Shown here piece by piece: positions 117 through 7,480 of a stretch of 38,537 nt of DNA. Both the position numbers and the translations under genes were made by a program. The notes beneath the pieces are model-generated. The model was given only the letters and a program-made list of their open reading frames with translations. It was not told the origin of the DNA and did not search any database. Positions within the stretch are counted from its first letter, which is position 1. Each line of letters starts with the position of its first letter. Origin of the DNA: Gemmatimonadota bacterium (GTDB taxonomy: Bacteria; Gemmatimonadota; Gemmatimonadetes; Gemmatimonadales; GWC2-71-9). The stretch lies in the NCBI GenBank assembly GCA_040388535.1, contig JAZKBR010000009.1:193774-232310 (forward strand), written 5' to 3'.

Positions 117-1847
117 ATGCGCGCGTGCTTCGCGCCGGTTCGAGGAGTGCGCCTGCCGGTGGCGCTCTTCCTGTTCGCGTCCCTGACGTCCACCGCGTCG
201 GCCCAGTGGCGCGATCATCGCGCCCTCAGTGCGGCACTCACGGCCCTGGCCCAGGAGCATGCGAGCCGGGCCTCACTGGTCACGGTGGCGACTTCGCCCG
301 GCGGCCGGTCGATCCAGGCACTTCGGATCGGTTCGGGAGGCAATGTGGCGACTCGCCCGGCGCTGCTGGTGGTGGCCAATGCCTATGGCCCGCACCTGGT
401 CGGTTCCGAGATCGCGTTCACGGCGGCGCAACGGCTGCTGCAAGGCTACGGTCGTGACTCTGCCGCCACCCGACTGCTGAACGGTACCACGCTCTGGTTC
501 GTCCCCCGGCTCAACCCCGATGCCGCCGAAGGGCTGCTTGGCGCTCTCAAGTGGGAACGGGTCGGCAACGGGACCGCCTTCGACGACGATCGCGACCAGA
601 AGGTCGACGAGGACGGCCCGGACGACCTCGACGGCAATGGCGTCATCACGATGATGCGGGTCGAGGATCCCAACGGCGAGTGGCTCGCGGATTCACTGGA
701 GCCGGGGCTGCTGCGGCGCGCCGACCCGGCCAAGGGTGAGGTCGGCAAGTATCGCCTCATCGGCGTCGAGGGAAAGGATGACGACGGCGACACGCGCTAT
801 AACGAAGACGCGGTGGGTGGCACCGATATCAATCGCAATTTTGCCTACAACTATGCCCACCACGGTACCAATGCCGGGCTCTTCTCGTTCTCGGCGATCG
901 AGACGCGCTCCTTTGCCGATTTCCTGATCGACCATCCGGAGATCGCGGCGGTGTACGTGCTGGGGCCGCAGGACAACCTGCTGACGCCGTGGACCAATCG
1001 GCCGTCGATGGGGATCGCGGACCCGCAAGGGAATCGTTCGCCCGAGGGAACCAGCGCGGGTGGCCAGCTCAACTCGATCCTCAAGGCGGATGAGGCGACC
1101 TTCGCTGACGCTTCACGCCGCTTCCAGAAGACCACCGGACTCAGCAAGGGGCCGGCGGGTGCAGCGAGCGCGGGCGACGTGCTCTCGTTCCTCTACTACG
1201 ATTTCGGTCGCTGGGCGTTCGGCTCGCGGGCGTGGTGGGTGCCCGAGGCGCCGCGCGATACCGCTGGGCGTGGCAGGGCAGGCGCAGCTGCGGGGACCGA
1301 CGGGCTCAGCGACGACCGCAATGCGTTGCGCTGGTTTCGCGCCAATCGGATCGACGCTTTCGTGCCGTGGGGCAAGGTGACACTTGCGGGCGAATCGCGC
1401 GCTACCGAAGTCGGCGGCTTCAAGCCGGGTGCGCTGCTCAATCCGCCTGTTGGTGAACAGTTCGACTCCACCATGGCGCGCCACGAGCGCTTCATCGTCG
1501 AACTGGCCGGGATGCTGCCTCGCATTGCCCTGCGCGACGTGAAACTCGAGGCGGTGGGTGAAGGCGTCTGGCGCGTCTCCGCCGATGTCGCCAACGATGG
1601 CGCGTTGCCGACGAGCACCGCTCTCGGCGCGCGGCTGCGGAATCCTCGCGGGATGCGTGTCGACCTCGATGTGAAGGGGAACACGATTCTCAGCGGCCAG
1701 AAGGTCCAGATCCTCGCACCCATTGCTGGGGGCGGGCGCTCGACCCGACTCGAATGGACCGTCGCGGCTCCTCGCGGCGCCGCCTTGTTGCTCACTGCTG
1801 GTTCGCCGGTGACGGGAACCGTGTCTCAGACCATCACGCTCCGGTGA
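117..1847 (+). CDS. Secreted M14 carboxypeptidase-like protein, predicted inactive
   Basis: Zinc carboxypeptidase (M14) fold protein of 576 residues with an N-terminal signal peptide (hydrophobic stretch ending TASAQ near residue 27). The start is ATG 117; GTG 111 is an alternative and the longer reading to base 30 adds no signal-like sequence. It aligns along its length with the next gene: a substrate-site NRN motif (INRNF), two Asp-rich inserts and a C-terminal beta domain are all present. All three zinc ligands of the family are replaced: the first His is Tyr90, the Glu is His93, and the second His is Gly283 by alignment. I therefore infer loss of peptidase activity, with binding or a partner role remaining. 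Only 8 bases separate it from the active paralogue, so the two are probably co-translated. Family membership is firm; inactivity rests on manual alignment. Confidence 0.85.
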   Translation: MRACFAPVRGVRLPVALFLFASLTSTASAQWRDHRALSAALTALAQEHASRASLVTVATSPGGRSIQALRIGSGGNVATRPALLVVANAYGPHLVGSEIAFTAAQRLLQGYGRDSAATRLLNGTTLWFVPRLNPDAAEGLLGALKWERVGNGTAFDDDRDQKVDEDGPDDLDGNGVITMMRVEDPNGEWLADSLEPGLLRRADPAKGEVGKYRLIGVEGKDDDGDTRYNEDAVGGTDINRNFAYNYAHHGTNAGLFSFSAIETRSFADFLIDHPEIAAVYVLGPQDNLLTPWTNRPSMGIADPQGNRSPEGTSAGGQLNSILKADEATFADASRRFQKTTGLSKGPAGAASAGDVLSFLYYDFGRWAFGSRAWWVPEAPRDTAGRGRAGAAAGTDGLSDDRNALRWFRANRIDAFVPWGKVTLAGESRATEVGGFKPGALLNPPVGEQFDSTMARHERFIVELAGMLPRIALRDVKLEAVGEGVWRVSADVANDGALPTSTALGARLRNPRGMRVDLDVKGNTILSGQKVQILAPIAGGGRSTRLEWTVAAPRGAALLLTAGSPVTGTVSQTITLR

Positions 1848-1855
1848 GGCCGCCG

Positions 1856-3598
1856 ATGCGCATCCGACTCCTCGCCCTCGCGGCCCTTGCCGTCACCGCT
1901 CGCATTGCTCCGGTGAGCGCGCAACAGGCACCGGCGGCCCTCGGCAATCTCGCCGCCGCCGGCTCGCCGCGTGATCCCAAGGTCCAGGTGATGTGGGATC
2001 GCTTCTATGATCACGCCGCCATCGGCGAAATCGGCCGGCGGTTACAGGCCGCTCACCCGAACACCTGCCGCCTCTCGTCCATCGGCAAGAGTCACGACGG
2101 CCGCGACATCTGGGTCATCACGGTGAGCGACTTCACCAAGGGCGATCCCGACAAGAAGCCGGCGATGTACATCGACGGCAACATTCACTCGAACGAAATC
2201 CAGGGCACCGAGTTCGCCCTGTACACGGCGTGGTACCTCTGCGAGATGCAGGGGCAGAACGCCTGGATCGATTCACTGCTGGCCACGCGCACGATGTACC
2301 TGGTGCCGACCATCAACCCCGACGGCCGCGAGGATTACCTCAAGCAGCCGAACAATGCCTCGTCGCCGCGCACCGGCAAGGTGCCGCGCGACAACGATGG
2401 CGACGGGCTCATTGATGAGGACAGCTACGACGACCTCGACAAGGACGGCAACATCACCCAGATGCGCCGTCGTAACCCCAACGGCCGCTTCATCGAGAGC
2501 CCGGAAGATCCGCGGATCATGATTCCCGCGCTCCCGGGCCAGAAGGGCCAGTGGGACCTGCTCGGCAGCGAAGGGATCGACAACGACGGCGATGGTCTGG
2601 TGAACGAGGATGGCATCGGCGGCTACGATCCGAATCGCAACTGGCCCTGGCGCTGGCAGCCGAGCTACGTACAGGGCGGCTCGGACTTCTACCCGACGTC
2701 ATTGCCGGAAACGCGTGCCGTCATCGACTTCGTGAGCAAGCATCCGAACATTGCGGGTGCCCAGAGCTATCACAACAACGGCGGGATGATCCTTCGCGGC
2801 CCTGGCTCTCCGCAGGACGAATACCGGCCGCAGGACGTCCAGGTCTTCGACCAGCTGGGTCGCGTCGGTGAGCGGATCCTGCCGGGCTACAAGTACATCG
2901 TGGTCTGGAAGGATCTCTATATCGTCTGGGGCGGGGAACTCGACTGGTTCTATGGCAATCGCGGCATCGTGACTTTCTCGAACGAACTGTGGACCGACTT
3001 CAAGTACTTCGAGAAGAACAACGACAACACATCGCGTTACGCGCGGCCGGACTATGAGTTCGATCGACTGCTCCTCTTTGGCGATGCCTTTGTACCGTGG
3101 AAGCCGTTCAAGCATCCGCAGTACGGTGACATCGAGGTTGGCGGCTTCAAGAAGACCTTCGGTCGTGCCGAACCCGGCTTCCTGGTCCAGGCGGAAGGGC
3201 ACCGGAACATGGCGTTCACGCTCTTCCAGATGTGGCAGTTGCCGAGCGTGGGGGTGGACTCGATCGGCGTACGACCGCTGGGCAATGGCCTCACCGAGGT
3301 CACCGCGATCGTCTCGAACAATCGCATCGTGCCGACGCACACCCAGCAGGATGTCGAGAACAAGATCACTCGTCCCGACTTTGTCACCCTCACGGGCGGC
3401 ACGGTCATCACCGGCTACCGCGTCACCAACACGCTCAACGGGCAGTCGACGGAGCAGGCACGCAATCCAGCGCAGCTCGAGATCAGCAACATCCCGGGCA
3501 ACTCGAACCTGATGGTGAAGTGGGTGGTTCGAGGCAACGGACCATTCACCGTCACTGTGGACTCGGAAAAGGGCGGCACGGCCACACTCCGCAAGTAA
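1856..3598 (+). CDS. Secreted M14 zinc carboxypeptidase
   Basis: Exported zinc carboxypeptidase of 580 residues that should trim C-terminal residues from peptides outside the cytoplasm. The signal peptide covers residues 1-22 or so (ends PVSAQ). The zinc site is intact: His111 and Glu114 in NIHSNE, and His306 in SYHNN. Glu377 in SNELW is the expected general base, and NRNW supplies the substrate-carboxylate arginine. Two DxDxDG-type loops (DNDGDGLIDED and DNDGDGLVNED), inserted before the NRN motif, look like calcium-binding loops. A C-terminal beta-rich domain follows the catalytic domain. ATG 1856 directly precedes the signal peptide; a longer in-frame opening only overlaps the upstream gene. 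Specificity cannot be read from the sequence. Confidence 0.93.
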   Translation: MRIRLLALAALAVTARIAPVSAQQAPAALGNLAAAGSPRDPKVQVMWDRFYDHAAIGEIGRRLQAAHPNTCRLSSIGKSHDGRDIWVITVSDFTKGDPDKKPAMYIDGNIHSNEIQGTEFALYTAWYLCEMQGQNAWIDSLLATRTMYLVPTINPDGREDYLKQPNNASSPRTGKVPRDNDGDGLIDEDSYDDLDKDGNITQMRRRNPNGRFIESPEDPRIMIPALPGQKGQWDLLGSEGIDNDGDGLVNEDGIGGYDPNRNWPWRWQPSYVQGGSDFYPTSLPETRAVIDFVSKHPNIAGAQSYHNNGGMILRGPGSPQDEYRPQDVQVFDQLGRVGERILPGYKYIVVWKDLYIVWGGELDWFYGNRGIVTFSNELWTDFKYFEKNNDNTSRYARPDYEFDRLLLFGDAFVPWKPFKHPQYGDIEVGGFKKTFGRAEPGFLVQAEGHRNMAFTLFQMWQLPSVGVDSIGVRPLGNGLTEVTAIVSNNRIVPTHTQQDVENKITRPDFVTLTGGTVITGYRVTNTLNGQSTEQARNPAQLEISNIPGNSNLMVKWVVRGNGPFTVTVDSEKGGTATLRK

Positions 3599-3681: not shown

Positions 3682-5394
3682 CTACTTCAGGCGCGGCTCC
3701 GTCTTCCGCGGTGCCTTGACGCAGACCGGCCATGCGCCGCCACCTGCACCACGACCACCGCCGGCGCCGTTGGCGGCAGGCGCCTGCGGGGTGACCCGGT
3801 CGAGCGAGATTCGCGTCGGATCTTCCGAGGCCATGTACGCGAGCATTGCCGTGATGGTGGCGTTCCCCTTGAGTTCGTCGAAGACGACCTTGTCAAAGGT
3901 GTCGCGTTCGGTGTGCCAGGTCACGTTGCCGTAGTCCCAGCCTGCCGCGCTGAGGCCGAACGCCGGGAGGCCGTTGCAGGCAAAGGAGAAGTCATCGCTG
4001 CCGCCGCCAGCCGGCCGGCCGGCGCCGCCGAAGTTGATCTGCGTCTTGAATTCGGTCGGCAGCTTCCCGAGCCAGGCGTTGATGTGATCGGGCGAGTTCA
4101 CCAGACCCCCGCCACCCATCCGGACAATGCGGCCAGTGCCGTTGTCCTGGTTGAAGAGCGCCATCAATCCCTTGAGGATATCGGGATGGTCTTCAGTGAA
4201 GGCCTTGGAACCAACCTCGCCCTCTTCCTCACCGCTCCAGTGTCCCACCAGGATGGTGCGCTTCGGCTTGGGGTAGGCGGTCTTGAGGATGCGCATCGCT
4301 TCCATCATCGTCAGCGTGCCGGTGCCGTTGTCGGTGGCACCGCTCGAGCCGTCCCACGAATCGAAGTGGGCCGAGAGCATCACATACTCGTCCGGCTTCT
4401 CGGTACCGCGGATCATCGCGACGGTGTTGAACACCGGCTGCTCGCCGAGCAGCTGGCCGTCGAGGTTGAGCCGGAGCTTCGGCTGTTCGCCCTTCTCGGC
4501 GAGTCGGAACACCAGGCCGTAATCTTCGCAGCTCAAGGCGATCGTCGGCACCTTCGTGGTGTAGGTCTCGAAGATTTCCATCGTGCCCCAGCCGGTATTG
4601 CTGGCGCCGCCGAGTCCACCCCCACCACCGCCACGCGCTCCAGGACCGGGCGCCGGCGTGGTGCCAGCCGGAGCCGGCGGCGGAGCCAGCCGCCACGGCA
4701 GCTTCGGTCGCGACGAGATCACGCCGGCGACGCCGCCCTGCTCGAGTCGCACCGCGAGTTCACCACCGCCGAGCGCGAGCGAGTAGCCAGTGCCGCGCAC
4801 GTCGCGACCGCTCCACTCACGCTGCGTCTTCACCATCAGCGAATCCATCCGCGACTTCACTTCCGGGGTGGCGTTCGCCTGCCAGTCGTCCTGCGGACGG
4901 CAAGTGGGGAGCCCGGCCGAAACCAGCACCAACTTTCCCTTGGCCTGCGGCAGCCACTTCACGAATTCGGTGCTGTCCTTGAACCGCGGCAGGATCACCG
5001 CAACGGCATCGACGTCCTTCTTGCCAGTGCCCGGCGAGTAGCCGAGCATCTGGCCCTCGAGAGTCCGGGTGCGCGGCGAAATGAGATCGATGTGGGAGTA
5101 GCCACGACGCCAGCCGCGCCAGGTGCCGTACTGTTCGTTCTTCGCTTCGATTCCCCAGCCGGTGTAAGTCTTCACCAGCCAGTCCTGTGCGGCCTTGAGG
5201 TTGGGAGCGCCCATCAGGCGGGGCCCGAGGGAGTCGAAGAGGGTGTGAGCGAGGTCCCAGGTCTTGCTGTTCTCCATTCCCATCGACCAGATCTGCTTGA
5301 TGACCGGATCGTCGGTGGGGAAGGTCTGGGCGGAGAGGGGCCCAGCGGCGAGCAGGAGCGCGCCGATGGCGAGGCGATGGTACGCACGAGGCAT
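3682..5394 (-). CDS. Secreted M28-family metallopeptidase
   Basis: Exported di-zinc aminopeptidase/carboxypeptidase of the M28 family, 570 residues. The signal peptide ends at LSAQ near residue 23. Metal-site motifs appear in order: SAHFDSWDG near residue 342, ATDNGTG, GEEEGEVGS near 390, QDNGTG, SDDFSF near 465 and a late WHTERDT His near 493. A Gly/Pro-rich insert (near 4590-4680 on the plus-strand scale) interrupts the region before the catalytic domain, probably at a PA-type or linker boundary, and the C-terminus is also Gly/Ala-rich. ATG 5394 begins the signal peptide; the 147 residues open upstream overlap the glycosyltransferase gene and have no signal character. It lies 85 bases after that gene, so it could be last in the operon or have its own promoter. 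Confidence 0.92.
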   Translation of the reverse strand: MPRAYHRLAIGALLLAAGPLSAQTFPTDDPVIKQIWSMGMENSKTWDLAHTLFDSLGPRLMGAPNLKAAQDWLVKTYTGWGIEAKNEQYGTWRGWRRGYSHIDLISPRTRTLEGQMLGYSPGTGKKDVDAVAVILPRFKDSTEFVKWLPQAKGKLVLVSAGLPTCRPQDDWQANATPEVKSRMDSLMVKTQREWSGRDVRGTGYSLALGGGELAVRLEQGGVAGVISSRPKLPWRLAPPPAPAGTTPAPGPGARGGGGGGLGGASNTGWGTMEIFETYTTKVPTIALSCEDYGLVFRLAEKGEQPKLRLNLDGQLLGEQPVFNTVAMIRGTEKPDEYVMLSAHFDSWDGSSGATDNGTGTLTMMEAMRILKTAYPKPKRTILVGHWSGEEEGEVGSKAFTEDHPDILKGLMALFNQDNGTGRIVRMGGGGLVNSPDHINAWLGKLPTEFKTQINFGGAGRPAGGGSDDFSFACNGLPAFGLSAAGWDYGNVTWHTERDTFDKVVFDELKGNATITAMLAYMASEDPTRISLDRVTPQAPAANGAGGGRGAGGGAWPVCVKAPRKTEPRLK

Positions 5395-5479
5395 ACGAAA
5401 GTCCGGCTGATGTGAAACTGACGGGGGGGACAACCTGCTGGTACGTCCACCGGCCCCGGGATGTTGACGGTGAGGGGGC

Positions 5480-6466
5480 CTAGGCGAGAAATGGCCTGAG
5501 CGCGGCCTCGATCCGGTCGGCACAGGCACCGATGGTGAGCTGGGGGAGGGGCTCATCCGCAACGGTGGTGGCGGGGGAAGCAAGCGCCTCGCGGCAGGCG
5601 TGGGCGAGCGCCTCGGCATCGTCAGGATCGAAGAGCCGAACCTTCGGGCCGACAAACTCCCGGTGCACCGCAATGTCCGATGCCACCACCGGCCGCCGCA
5701 TCGCCAGCCCTTCCATGGGCGTGAGTCCGAAGCCCTCGAATCGCGACGGGCAGACCACGACCGAGGCCTCTCGGTACGCCGCCACGATCTCCTCATCACT
5801 CGCCCAGCCGTCGTCGAGTCGCAGGGCAACACCAAGCCTCGCCGCCTCCTGGCGCAACGAGTCGGCCTCGACCCCGCGGCCGATGATCCGGACTGCGACC
5901 GGCTCGGGAATCCTCGCGGCGGCCCGGAGCAGCACGCTGTGATTCTTCATCTGCGTGAGCCGTGAAATAGAGAGCAGAACCGCCGTGCCGCCTGGTGCTG
6001 CGGCGGTGGCATCGCCGTTGAAGCGCCCACTATCGTAGCAGAACGGCAATTGCGTCGCCTCGACTCCGAGGCGTGCGCGAACGTCAGCGACCGTCGTAGT
6101 CGATGGTGCCAGCACGAGCGTGGCCTGTTGCGCCACGTAGCCGATGCGACTGTAGTTGCCTGCACGCTCGGGATAGCGATTGAAGAGCCGCGGGATCTTC
6201 CAGAGTCGGCCACCGGTCGCGAAGATGTGATCTGGTCTTCCCGTGCCGAGTCGCCACGGGGGCAGGTCCCAGATGTAGAGGATCAGCGGGCAGCGATGGC
6301 GTGTGGCGTAGGCGAACGCCGCCACGGCGCACTGACCGTCGGCAGCCAAGGCAACGCGCGCCGGTCGGTCGCCGTCCTCGCTGATCTGCAGGCCGTGCGT
6401 GCGCAGTGTGGGCACTGGCAAGGTGCAGAAGCGATTGGGTGCGAACCAGCGAACGTCATCCACCAC
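5480..6466 (-). CDS. GT4-type glycosyltransferase
   Basis: GT-B fold, glycogen-synthase-like (GT4) glycosyltransferase of 328 residues, predicted cytoplasmic. The C-terminal nucleotide-sugar half is typical: LLSISRLTQMKN opens the second Rossmann domain, IIGRG follows, and SRFEGFGLTPMEG near residue 245 carries the EX7E pair. The GTG start at 6466 abuts the TGA stop of the upstream M28 gene (6467-6469) with no gap, which implies coupled translation. The N-terminal acceptor domain is weakly conserved, so donor and acceptor cannot be named. Its place between two secreted peptidases has no obvious biochemical logic. Confidence 0.85.
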   Translation of the reverse strand: MVDDVRWFAPNRFCTLPVPTLRTHGLQISEDGDRPARVALAADGQCAVAAFAYATRHRCPLILYIWDLPPWRLGTGRPDHIFATGGRLWKIPRLFNRYPERAGNYSRIGYVAQQATLVLAPSTTTVADVRARLGVEATQLPFCYDSGRFNGDATAAAPGGTAVLLSISRLTQMKNHSVLLRAAARIPEPVAVRIIGRGVEADSLRQEAARLGVALRLDDGWASDEEIVAAYREASVVVCPSRFEGFGLTPMEGLAMRRPVVASDIAVHREFVGPKVRLFDPDDAEALAHACREALASPATTVADEPLPQLTIGACADRIEAALRPFLA

Positions 6467-7480
6467 TCACTGCCCGGCGGCGGTGATCCTGGCATTGACC
6501 GGCGCGCTGTCGAAGCGACGAATGAAATCGGCGACCGTCCGCAGCGCGCCAACGTAGAACGCTGGCATCAGCTTATCGGCGTGATCGCTCGGCCGATGGT
6601 AGTCGGGGTGATCTTCTTCGCCGAAATAGACGAAGGGAATTCCCTTGGCGTGAAAGGCACCTTGGTCGGATTGCCCGGTCCAGTCGTTACCGGGGCCGGC
6701 CGATGCGCGATCGTGCCCGATCGTCAGGTGAATCGGTGCACAATCGACCGTGGCCTCGAGCAGCGGCGTCAGCAGCGGATACTTCCCCGGGCCAGCCGCA
6801 TAGAGTTCGTTGTTCACGTTGCGGCCGACCATATCCAGATTCACATTGAGGAGGATCTGGTCGAGCGGCACCGTTGGCGCAGAAACGAAGAAGCGCGAGC
6901 CCCACATGCCGGACTCTTCACCGTCCACGGCTGCGAAGATGATCGAGTGGGTCGGGCGCACGCGCAGGAAGTGTCGCGCCAGAATCGCGAGTGCCGCTGT
7001 GCCGGAGCCGTTGTCGTCGGCGCCGTTGTAGATCGAGTCGCCGTTGACGGGGCGGCCGATGCCGAGATGGTCGTAGTGCGCCGTGACCACGATGTACTGA
7101 TCGGGGAACGCGCTCCCCTTGATCAGTCCGACAATGTTCGCACCAGACTTCACGTCCTTGAGCCGGGCAGAGGTCGAAGTCACCGGGACCTTGTGAATTC
7201 GTCCGGGCGCGACCGTTTCGAGGCCGAGCGCGTCGAAGCGCGCAGCGAGGAAGTCGCGGACCTTGGCGCTTCCGAGGGAGCCGATGGCGCGGCCACCCAT
7301 CGAGTCAGCCGAGATGGCCGCCACGTCACTCAGCAGCGCGACCGAGTCGAGCATCGGCAGCGGGGCGCACCCCTGCTTGGTCGGGGGGATGGTCGAGGCC
7401 ATCGTCGTCTGGCCGGTGCCCCGGGCGCAGGCAGCCGCGACCAGAAGGAGCGGGAGGATCAAGGTCGGGCGGAGCGTCAT
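6467..7480 (-). CDS. M28 aminopeptidase lipoprotein
   Basis: M28 family metallopeptidase of 337 residues, predicted to be a lipid-anchored aminopeptidase. The signal ends in lipobox LVAAAC with Cys18 as the lipidation site. Catalytic motifs are complete and in order: AHYDHLG near residue 134, GADDNGSG near 153, DGEESG near 187, NLDMVG near 215, SDQGAF, and DHPDYH near 293. It is the first gene of a minus-strand unit followed directly by the glycosyltransferase. The likely promoter is at 7530-7557; the leader from there to ATG is pyrimidine-rich because it is transcribed from the GAGAAGG heptad array, and I see no Shine-Dalgarno sequence in it. Confidence 0.93.

Follow-up and report, generated by a model that had tools for sequence, protein, structure and literature searches.

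Why does a bacterium keep an intact gene for a peptidase homologue without zinc ligands directly upstream of a gene for a homologue that has all of them? The question is raised by two M14-family genes, P1 and P2, near the start of a 38,537-nucleotide stretch of DNA from a Gemmatimonadota bacterium (the whole stretch that was analysed, hereafter the window). The features that concern the pair are as follows.

117..1847, + strand: P1, secreted M14 pseudo-carboxypeptidase (ATG at 117, stop codon at 1845-1847; 576 aa)
384..395, + strand: P1 codons 90-93, Tyr-Gly-Pro-His, in place of the first two zinc ligands, HxxE (from the alignments)
963..977, + strand: P1 codons 283-287, Gly-Pro-Gln-Asp-Asn, with Gly for the third ligand His, then the near-invariant Asp-Asn
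1227..1229, + strand: P1 codon 371, Arg, at the position of the catalytic glutamate (from the alignment)
1856..3598, + strand: P2, secreted active-type M14 zinc carboxypeptidase (ATG at 1856; 580 aa)
2186..2197, + strand: P2 codons 111-114, His-Ser-Asn-Glu, zinc ligands 1 and 2 (His and Glu in 100 of 100 P2 rows)
2771..2773, + strand: P2 codon 306, His, third zinc ligand (97 of 97 readable P2 rows)
2984..2986, + strand: P2 codon 377, Glu, catalytic glutamate (from the alignment)

The two proteins are homologous, with 27% identity over 516 columns (E 1e-38). Both match the M14 profile PF00246 above its cut-off of 21.6 bits (84 bits for P1 and 140 bits for P2), and neither has a match in NCBIfam. 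A signal peptide is visible at each N-terminus, at about residues 1-29 in P1 and 1-22 in P2. AlphaFold2 models built from homologue alignments have a pLDDT of 93.7 and a pTM of 0.94 for P1, and 91.1 and 0.90 for P2. Among carboxypeptidases, carboxypeptidase T is the top structure match of both models; the P1 model aligns with it (3prt) over 288 residues with an rmsd of 2.7 A and a VIA-align Z of 31.0, and the P2 model matches it with a Foldseek E of 6e-22. Thus, by profile match and by carboxypeptidase fold, both are M14 homologues, and the structure prediction and profile alignment that the preliminary description had proposed as checks place P1 confidently in the family.

In the alignment, Tyr90, His93 and Gly283 of P1 stand where P2 has His111, Glu114 and His306, and the spacing between the ligand positions is 193 residues in P1 versus 195 in P2. 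These residues, their coordinates and the spacing were exact as first described, and the NRN motif, the Asp-rich loops and the signal peptides were found in both proteins, as had been said. The ligand positions also coincide in the two models, lying ahead of the helix that follows the third strand and right after the end of a strand. The loss extends further in P1: Arg371 is aligned to the catalytic Glu377 of P2, the equivalent of Arg127 is Val, and the loop carrying Tyr248 is absent. Both the HxxE...H zinc set and the catalytic Glu of an active M14 metallocarboxypeptidase are therefore missing from P1. As judged from the alignment and the model, its fold makes P1 an M14 protein, but its residues do not make it an M14 enzyme; with them it can neither hold the M14 zinc nor carry the catalytic Glu.

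Two other readings of the P1 sequence were rejected. The Glu of the motif WVPEA was considered as a retained catalytic Glu, but it is not conserved among P1s, and most of them have P, R, Q or N at the aligned position. A misalignment of P1 and P2 was also considered; the family-wide alignment, the secondary structure of both models and BLAST are concordant. As for the Asp-rich loops, calcium-binding-like segments of the DxDxDG type occur twice in each protein, at about residues 155-175 and 218-235 of P1 and 178-198 and 240-255 of P2. They are kept in most P1s, and given these loops calcium binding by P1 may be retained.

In carboxypeptidase A, the catalytic Glu is E270, the C-terminal carboxylate of the substrate is held by Asn144 and Arg145, and the S1' position is a guide to the preferred C-terminal residue. 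P2 carries the HxxE...H set, the catalytic Glu and the equivalents of Arg127, Asn144, Arg145 and Tyr248, all of them conserved in the P2 rows, as predicted for an active M14 enzyme. Its S1' specificity position is Leu (Ile or Leu in most relatives), which suggests, by analogy, that P2 would remove hydrophobic C-terminal residues. Only 8 nt separate the stop codon of P1 from the ATG of P2. From this gap and the tight spacing that is conserved elsewhere, the two genes are probably co-transcribed. Two M28-family peptidase genes adjoin the pair (3682-5835 and 6467-7480 of the window, both on the minus strand, the first of them convergent with P2); this is not a conserved neighbourhood in other genomes.

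Is the pair a peculiarity of this genome? A search of 249 Gemmatimonadota genomes found P1-type genes in 30, two of them cut by contig ends. A P2 profile search of the same 249 genomes found 30 that carry P2, with E values near 1e-139 or lower; the next group, at 1e-111, is well separated. The two sets of 30 genomes are identical, and P1 is always upstream on the same strand. When 84,980 species genomes were scanned, 80 loci were obtained whose ORFs have the same P1-P2 arrangement; they come from Gemmatimonadota, Acidobacteriota, Planctomycetota, Aminicenantes, KSB1, Bacteroidota/Rhodothermales and unclassified bacteria. Over 100 loci, some of which come from one genome, the distance from the P1 stop codon to the start of the P2 domain is 93-248 nt (median 158), leaving room for little beyond the P2 signal peptide. 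Several genomes have two or three pairs, and every one of these pairs consists of a dead gene followed by an active gene. No conserved third gene beside the pair was found in a search for one. No fused P1-P2 frame, and thus no single chain of the carboxypeptidase D type, was seen in the loci examined.

The survey of dead/active neighbours that had been proposed thus gave a consistent result: wherever contigs allow, the dead clade lies directly upstream of the same active clade, with one ambiguous exception. P1s without a P2 and P2s without a P1 lie at contig ends, except for one locus (L080) in which P1 is followed by a sequence that I read as RNase HIII-like and by no P2; the contig starts at P1. 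Two further groups of apparent exceptions were rejected. In a sample of 216 Planctomycetota genomes, the P2s without a P1 match have a strongly diverged dead M14 gene directly upstream where contigs allow (L213, L215-L217 and L219-L223). In Acidobacteriota, solo matches of the P1 model score better on the P2 model; they belong to a different, unpaired M14 group and are not P1-type.

The active-site loss is shared by the whole P1 group. A P1 homologue with an intact HxxE...H set, which would have spoken against a dead P1, was sought among the 95 distinct P1 proteins for which the sites could be scored, and none has it. Site 1 is E in 56 of them, D in 16, S in 8, Y in 7, F in 3 and H in 2, and W, Q or V in the rest; site 2 is mostly H (64) or Q (18), with D, R, T, F, V or L in the others; site 3 is G in 74, S in 16 and another residue in the remainder. 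The commonest motif, NLEGDH, is a swap of acid and histidine (E..H), and about 195 residues further on stands the near-invariant Asp-Asn (D in 87 of 95, N in 87 of 95). Within the subclade of the window's P1, site 1 is occupied by Y, F, S, W or H; Gln at site 2 occurs in relatives. Alternative metal ligands were also sought, and as judged by conservation P1s have no constant replacement set. About three quarters of P1s retain the Asn144 and Arg145 equivalents (82 and 84 rows), and only about a third retain that of Arg127; several members of the window's subclade have A, S, I or K instead of Arg145, the Arg of the NRN motif. An intermediate state was found at one locus (L225), where two of the three ligands, the Glu and the third His, are still present in the first gene, the first ligand is replaced by Ala and the catalytic Glu by Arg. 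One P1 subgroup (L056:6630-8750 and L057:5637-7760) has an inserted domain of about 100 residues ('GTWAIQ...LTLERDGTTLIGSFDSP...') right after the strand of the lost catalytic Glu.

How have the two genes evolved? In a tree made without the catalytic columns, P1s form one clade (support 100/100) and P2s another (99/98), and both clades span multiple phyla. In a comparison of 22 genomes with RpoB as a proxy for the species tree, the distance matrices of P1 and P2 correlate at r 0.958, and the correlation with RpoB is 0.59 for P1 and 0.56 for P2. The partial r between P1 and P2 given RpoB is 0.94 (permutation p 2e-4). Since the P1 and P2 trees agree far better with each other than with RpoB, the pair has been inherited and transferred as a unit. 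Three genomes (G049, G198 and G123) are put with another family by both trees, contrary to RpoB, so that in these the pair has apparently moved between lineages together. Among close relatives, dN/dS is 0.12-0.31 for P1 and 0.02-0.24 for P2. P1 is under purifying selection, and it evolves about 1.3 times faster than P2.

What does P1 do? The preliminary description had taken it for a pseudo-enzyme that acts as a partner or regulator of P2, and this reading is supported by the dead clade, the adjacency, the purifying selection and the matching trees. I consider it probable that P1 is a conserved non-catalytic partner dedicated to P2, presumably as a subunit of a heteromer. The loss of the catalytic set, the M14 fold, the purifying selection, the near-obligate adjacency in a fixed order and the joint inheritance and transfer are computed results, while I infer that the two proteins associate physically, what P1 does to P2 and what the substrate is. 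Together, the two genes would form a module that encodes a single secreted peptidase system, with P2 as its catalytic member; both proteins would be exported, most likely associating after secretion. As a subunit or a closely tied cofactor, P1 may aid the folding or stability of P2 and/or shape or present its substrate, by analogy with the M16B and Csd1/Csd2 pairs described below. The loss of the NRN Arg in the window's subclade and the faster evolution of P1 fit a scaffold better than a subunit that binds C-termini. A bolder form of the partner reading, put forward tentatively as one toward which I do not lean, is that the pair represents a hitherto undescribed class of two-subunit bacterial M14 peptidases, in which the active carboxypeptidase owes part of its substrate site or gate to an obligate pseudo-subunit, as in the M16B clamshells.

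The neighbourhood, the selection and the co-inheritance would also fit two secreted proteins that act sequentially on one substrate. All of the genomic linkage applies equally to a P1 that is tied to P2 but is no stable subunit, such as a secreted protein that captures peptides or presents substrates, a decoy or a sensor, with the genes kept together for co-expression. The Asn144/Arg145 equivalents that most P1s retain despite the lost catalysis favour such a binder, but the scarcity of the Arg127 equivalent, the missing Tyr248 loop and the replacement of Arg145 in several of the window's subclade do not, and the strict one-to-one adjacency and the duplication as pairs suggest stoichiometric partners; I regard this main alternative, in which P1 would be a peptide binder or regulator, as unlikely. 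More improbable is a P1 that has been re-purposed rather than inactivated, with the ExxH swap and the Asp-Asn forming a different metal or catalytic site. An acid at site 1 is indeed often combined with His at site 2 (EHG, EHS and DHG make up 46 of 95), and the Asp-Asn is well conserved, but the catalytic Glu and the Tyr loop are lost, the window's P1 has Tyr at site 1, Gln occurs at site 2 in relatives, and such variation at sites 1 and 2 inside one clade argues against a single conserved new metal site. It is scarcely credible that P1 is a decaying paralogue that is intact by chance. Every catalytic residue is gone and it evolves faster than P2, but its dN/dS, the intact frames in many genomes of several phyla, the single ancient clade and the co-occurrence in 30 of 30 genomes all stand against decay; a pseudogene was rejected by the dN/dS and the breadth of distribution.

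Dead partners of active metallopeptidases are known in other families. In the M16B family, the bacterial two-gene peptidases SPH2681/SPH2682, TTHA1264/TTHA1265 and Bcn-gP1/Bcn-gP2 form active heterodimers, and the dead subunit of mitochondrial MPP alpha/beta is essential (PMC12731061, PMC8960859, PMC11266112). As with P1 and P2, two homologous genes are involved, only one of which encodes the zinc motif; however, M16B belongs to an unrelated clan, and P1 and P2 have the M14 fold and motif instead of the clamshell M16 fold and HxxEH. The dimer is proven there and inferred here. Csd1/Csd2 of Helicobacter pylori is an active/dead pair of the M23B family (PMC5053510), which differs from P1/P2 in family (LytM domain), in its peptidoglycan substrate and in having a crystal structure of the complex. 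At the gene level, P1 and P2 show the same pattern as these two-subunit systems, adjacent homologues of which one is intact and the other is without metal ligands. Domain III of carboxypeptidase D has the same fold as P1: it is a dead M14 unit that works beside active M14 units, nearly all of its catalytic residues are substituted, and substrate presentation has been proposed for it (PMC11266112). It is, however, the last unit of one fused animal polypeptide, whereas P1 is encoded by a separate bacterial gene that comes first.

AEBP1/ACLP, CPXM1, CPXM2 and yeast Ecm14 also have the M14 fold and have lost residues for catalysis or substrate binding, but they are eukaryotic, keep two or three zinc ligands (Table 2, PMC11266112) and are described there without a co-encoded active partner. 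The discoidin domain that precedes the carboxypeptidase unit in the AEBP1/CPXM type is absent from P1, in which only PF00246 matches, from residue 39, just past the signal peptide. Carboxypeptidase T of Thermoactinomyces, the closest solved fold to both proteins, is a single active enzyme whose catalytic set is common to P2 and absent from P1. In a 2024 review of inactive metallopeptidases, the M14 pseudopeptidases are all eukaryotic, four from vertebrates and one from yeast (PMC11266112). No bacterial M14 pseudopeptidase and no two-gene active/dead M14 system was found in the open papers searched (PubMed Central, with most subscription papers outside). Thus, dead partner subunits are known in principle from other families, while the near-obligate bacterial M14 form appears to be undescribed within this literature. 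If confirmed, it would join an enzyme and a pseudoenzyme in an ancient, near-obligate pair that occurs in several phyla. Loci that differ in how far the active site has been lost (for example, the one with two of three ligands) would serve as natural replicates, and the function of a dead protease subunit could be studied in a simple system. The blanket annotation of PF00246 matches as carboxypeptidases is wrong for half of these pairs' members. If the two-subunit reading were true, the picture of M14 enzymes as self-sufficient monomers would fail for a large environmental lineage.

Other M14 genes were seen in the loci examined. Many members of the solo group in Acidobacteriota have an intact set, and one class (L068, L154, L158, L163-L168, L171, L172 and L175) has Asp for the third ligand His ('LDLHRNYPE ... 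[D]T') with HxxE and the catalytic Glu kept, consistently across many genomes. Two more solo genes (L063:5919-7763 and L064:5307-7439) have Asp for the first zinc-ligand His, with the other catalytic residues intact. Four loci of Aminicenantes/Acidobacteriota (L155, L159, L179 and L180) have tandem M14 pairs in which both members carry the catalytic set, and the clade of the second member is sister to P2; these possibly represent an older arrangement of two active genes. KSB1 bacterium 4572_119 has a reversed tandem (L162:2115-6098), an active-type M14 gene followed by a dead one (R/E/Q, with Ser at the catalytic Glu). The latter falls outside the P1 clade, which suggests a separate origin of an active/dead pair.
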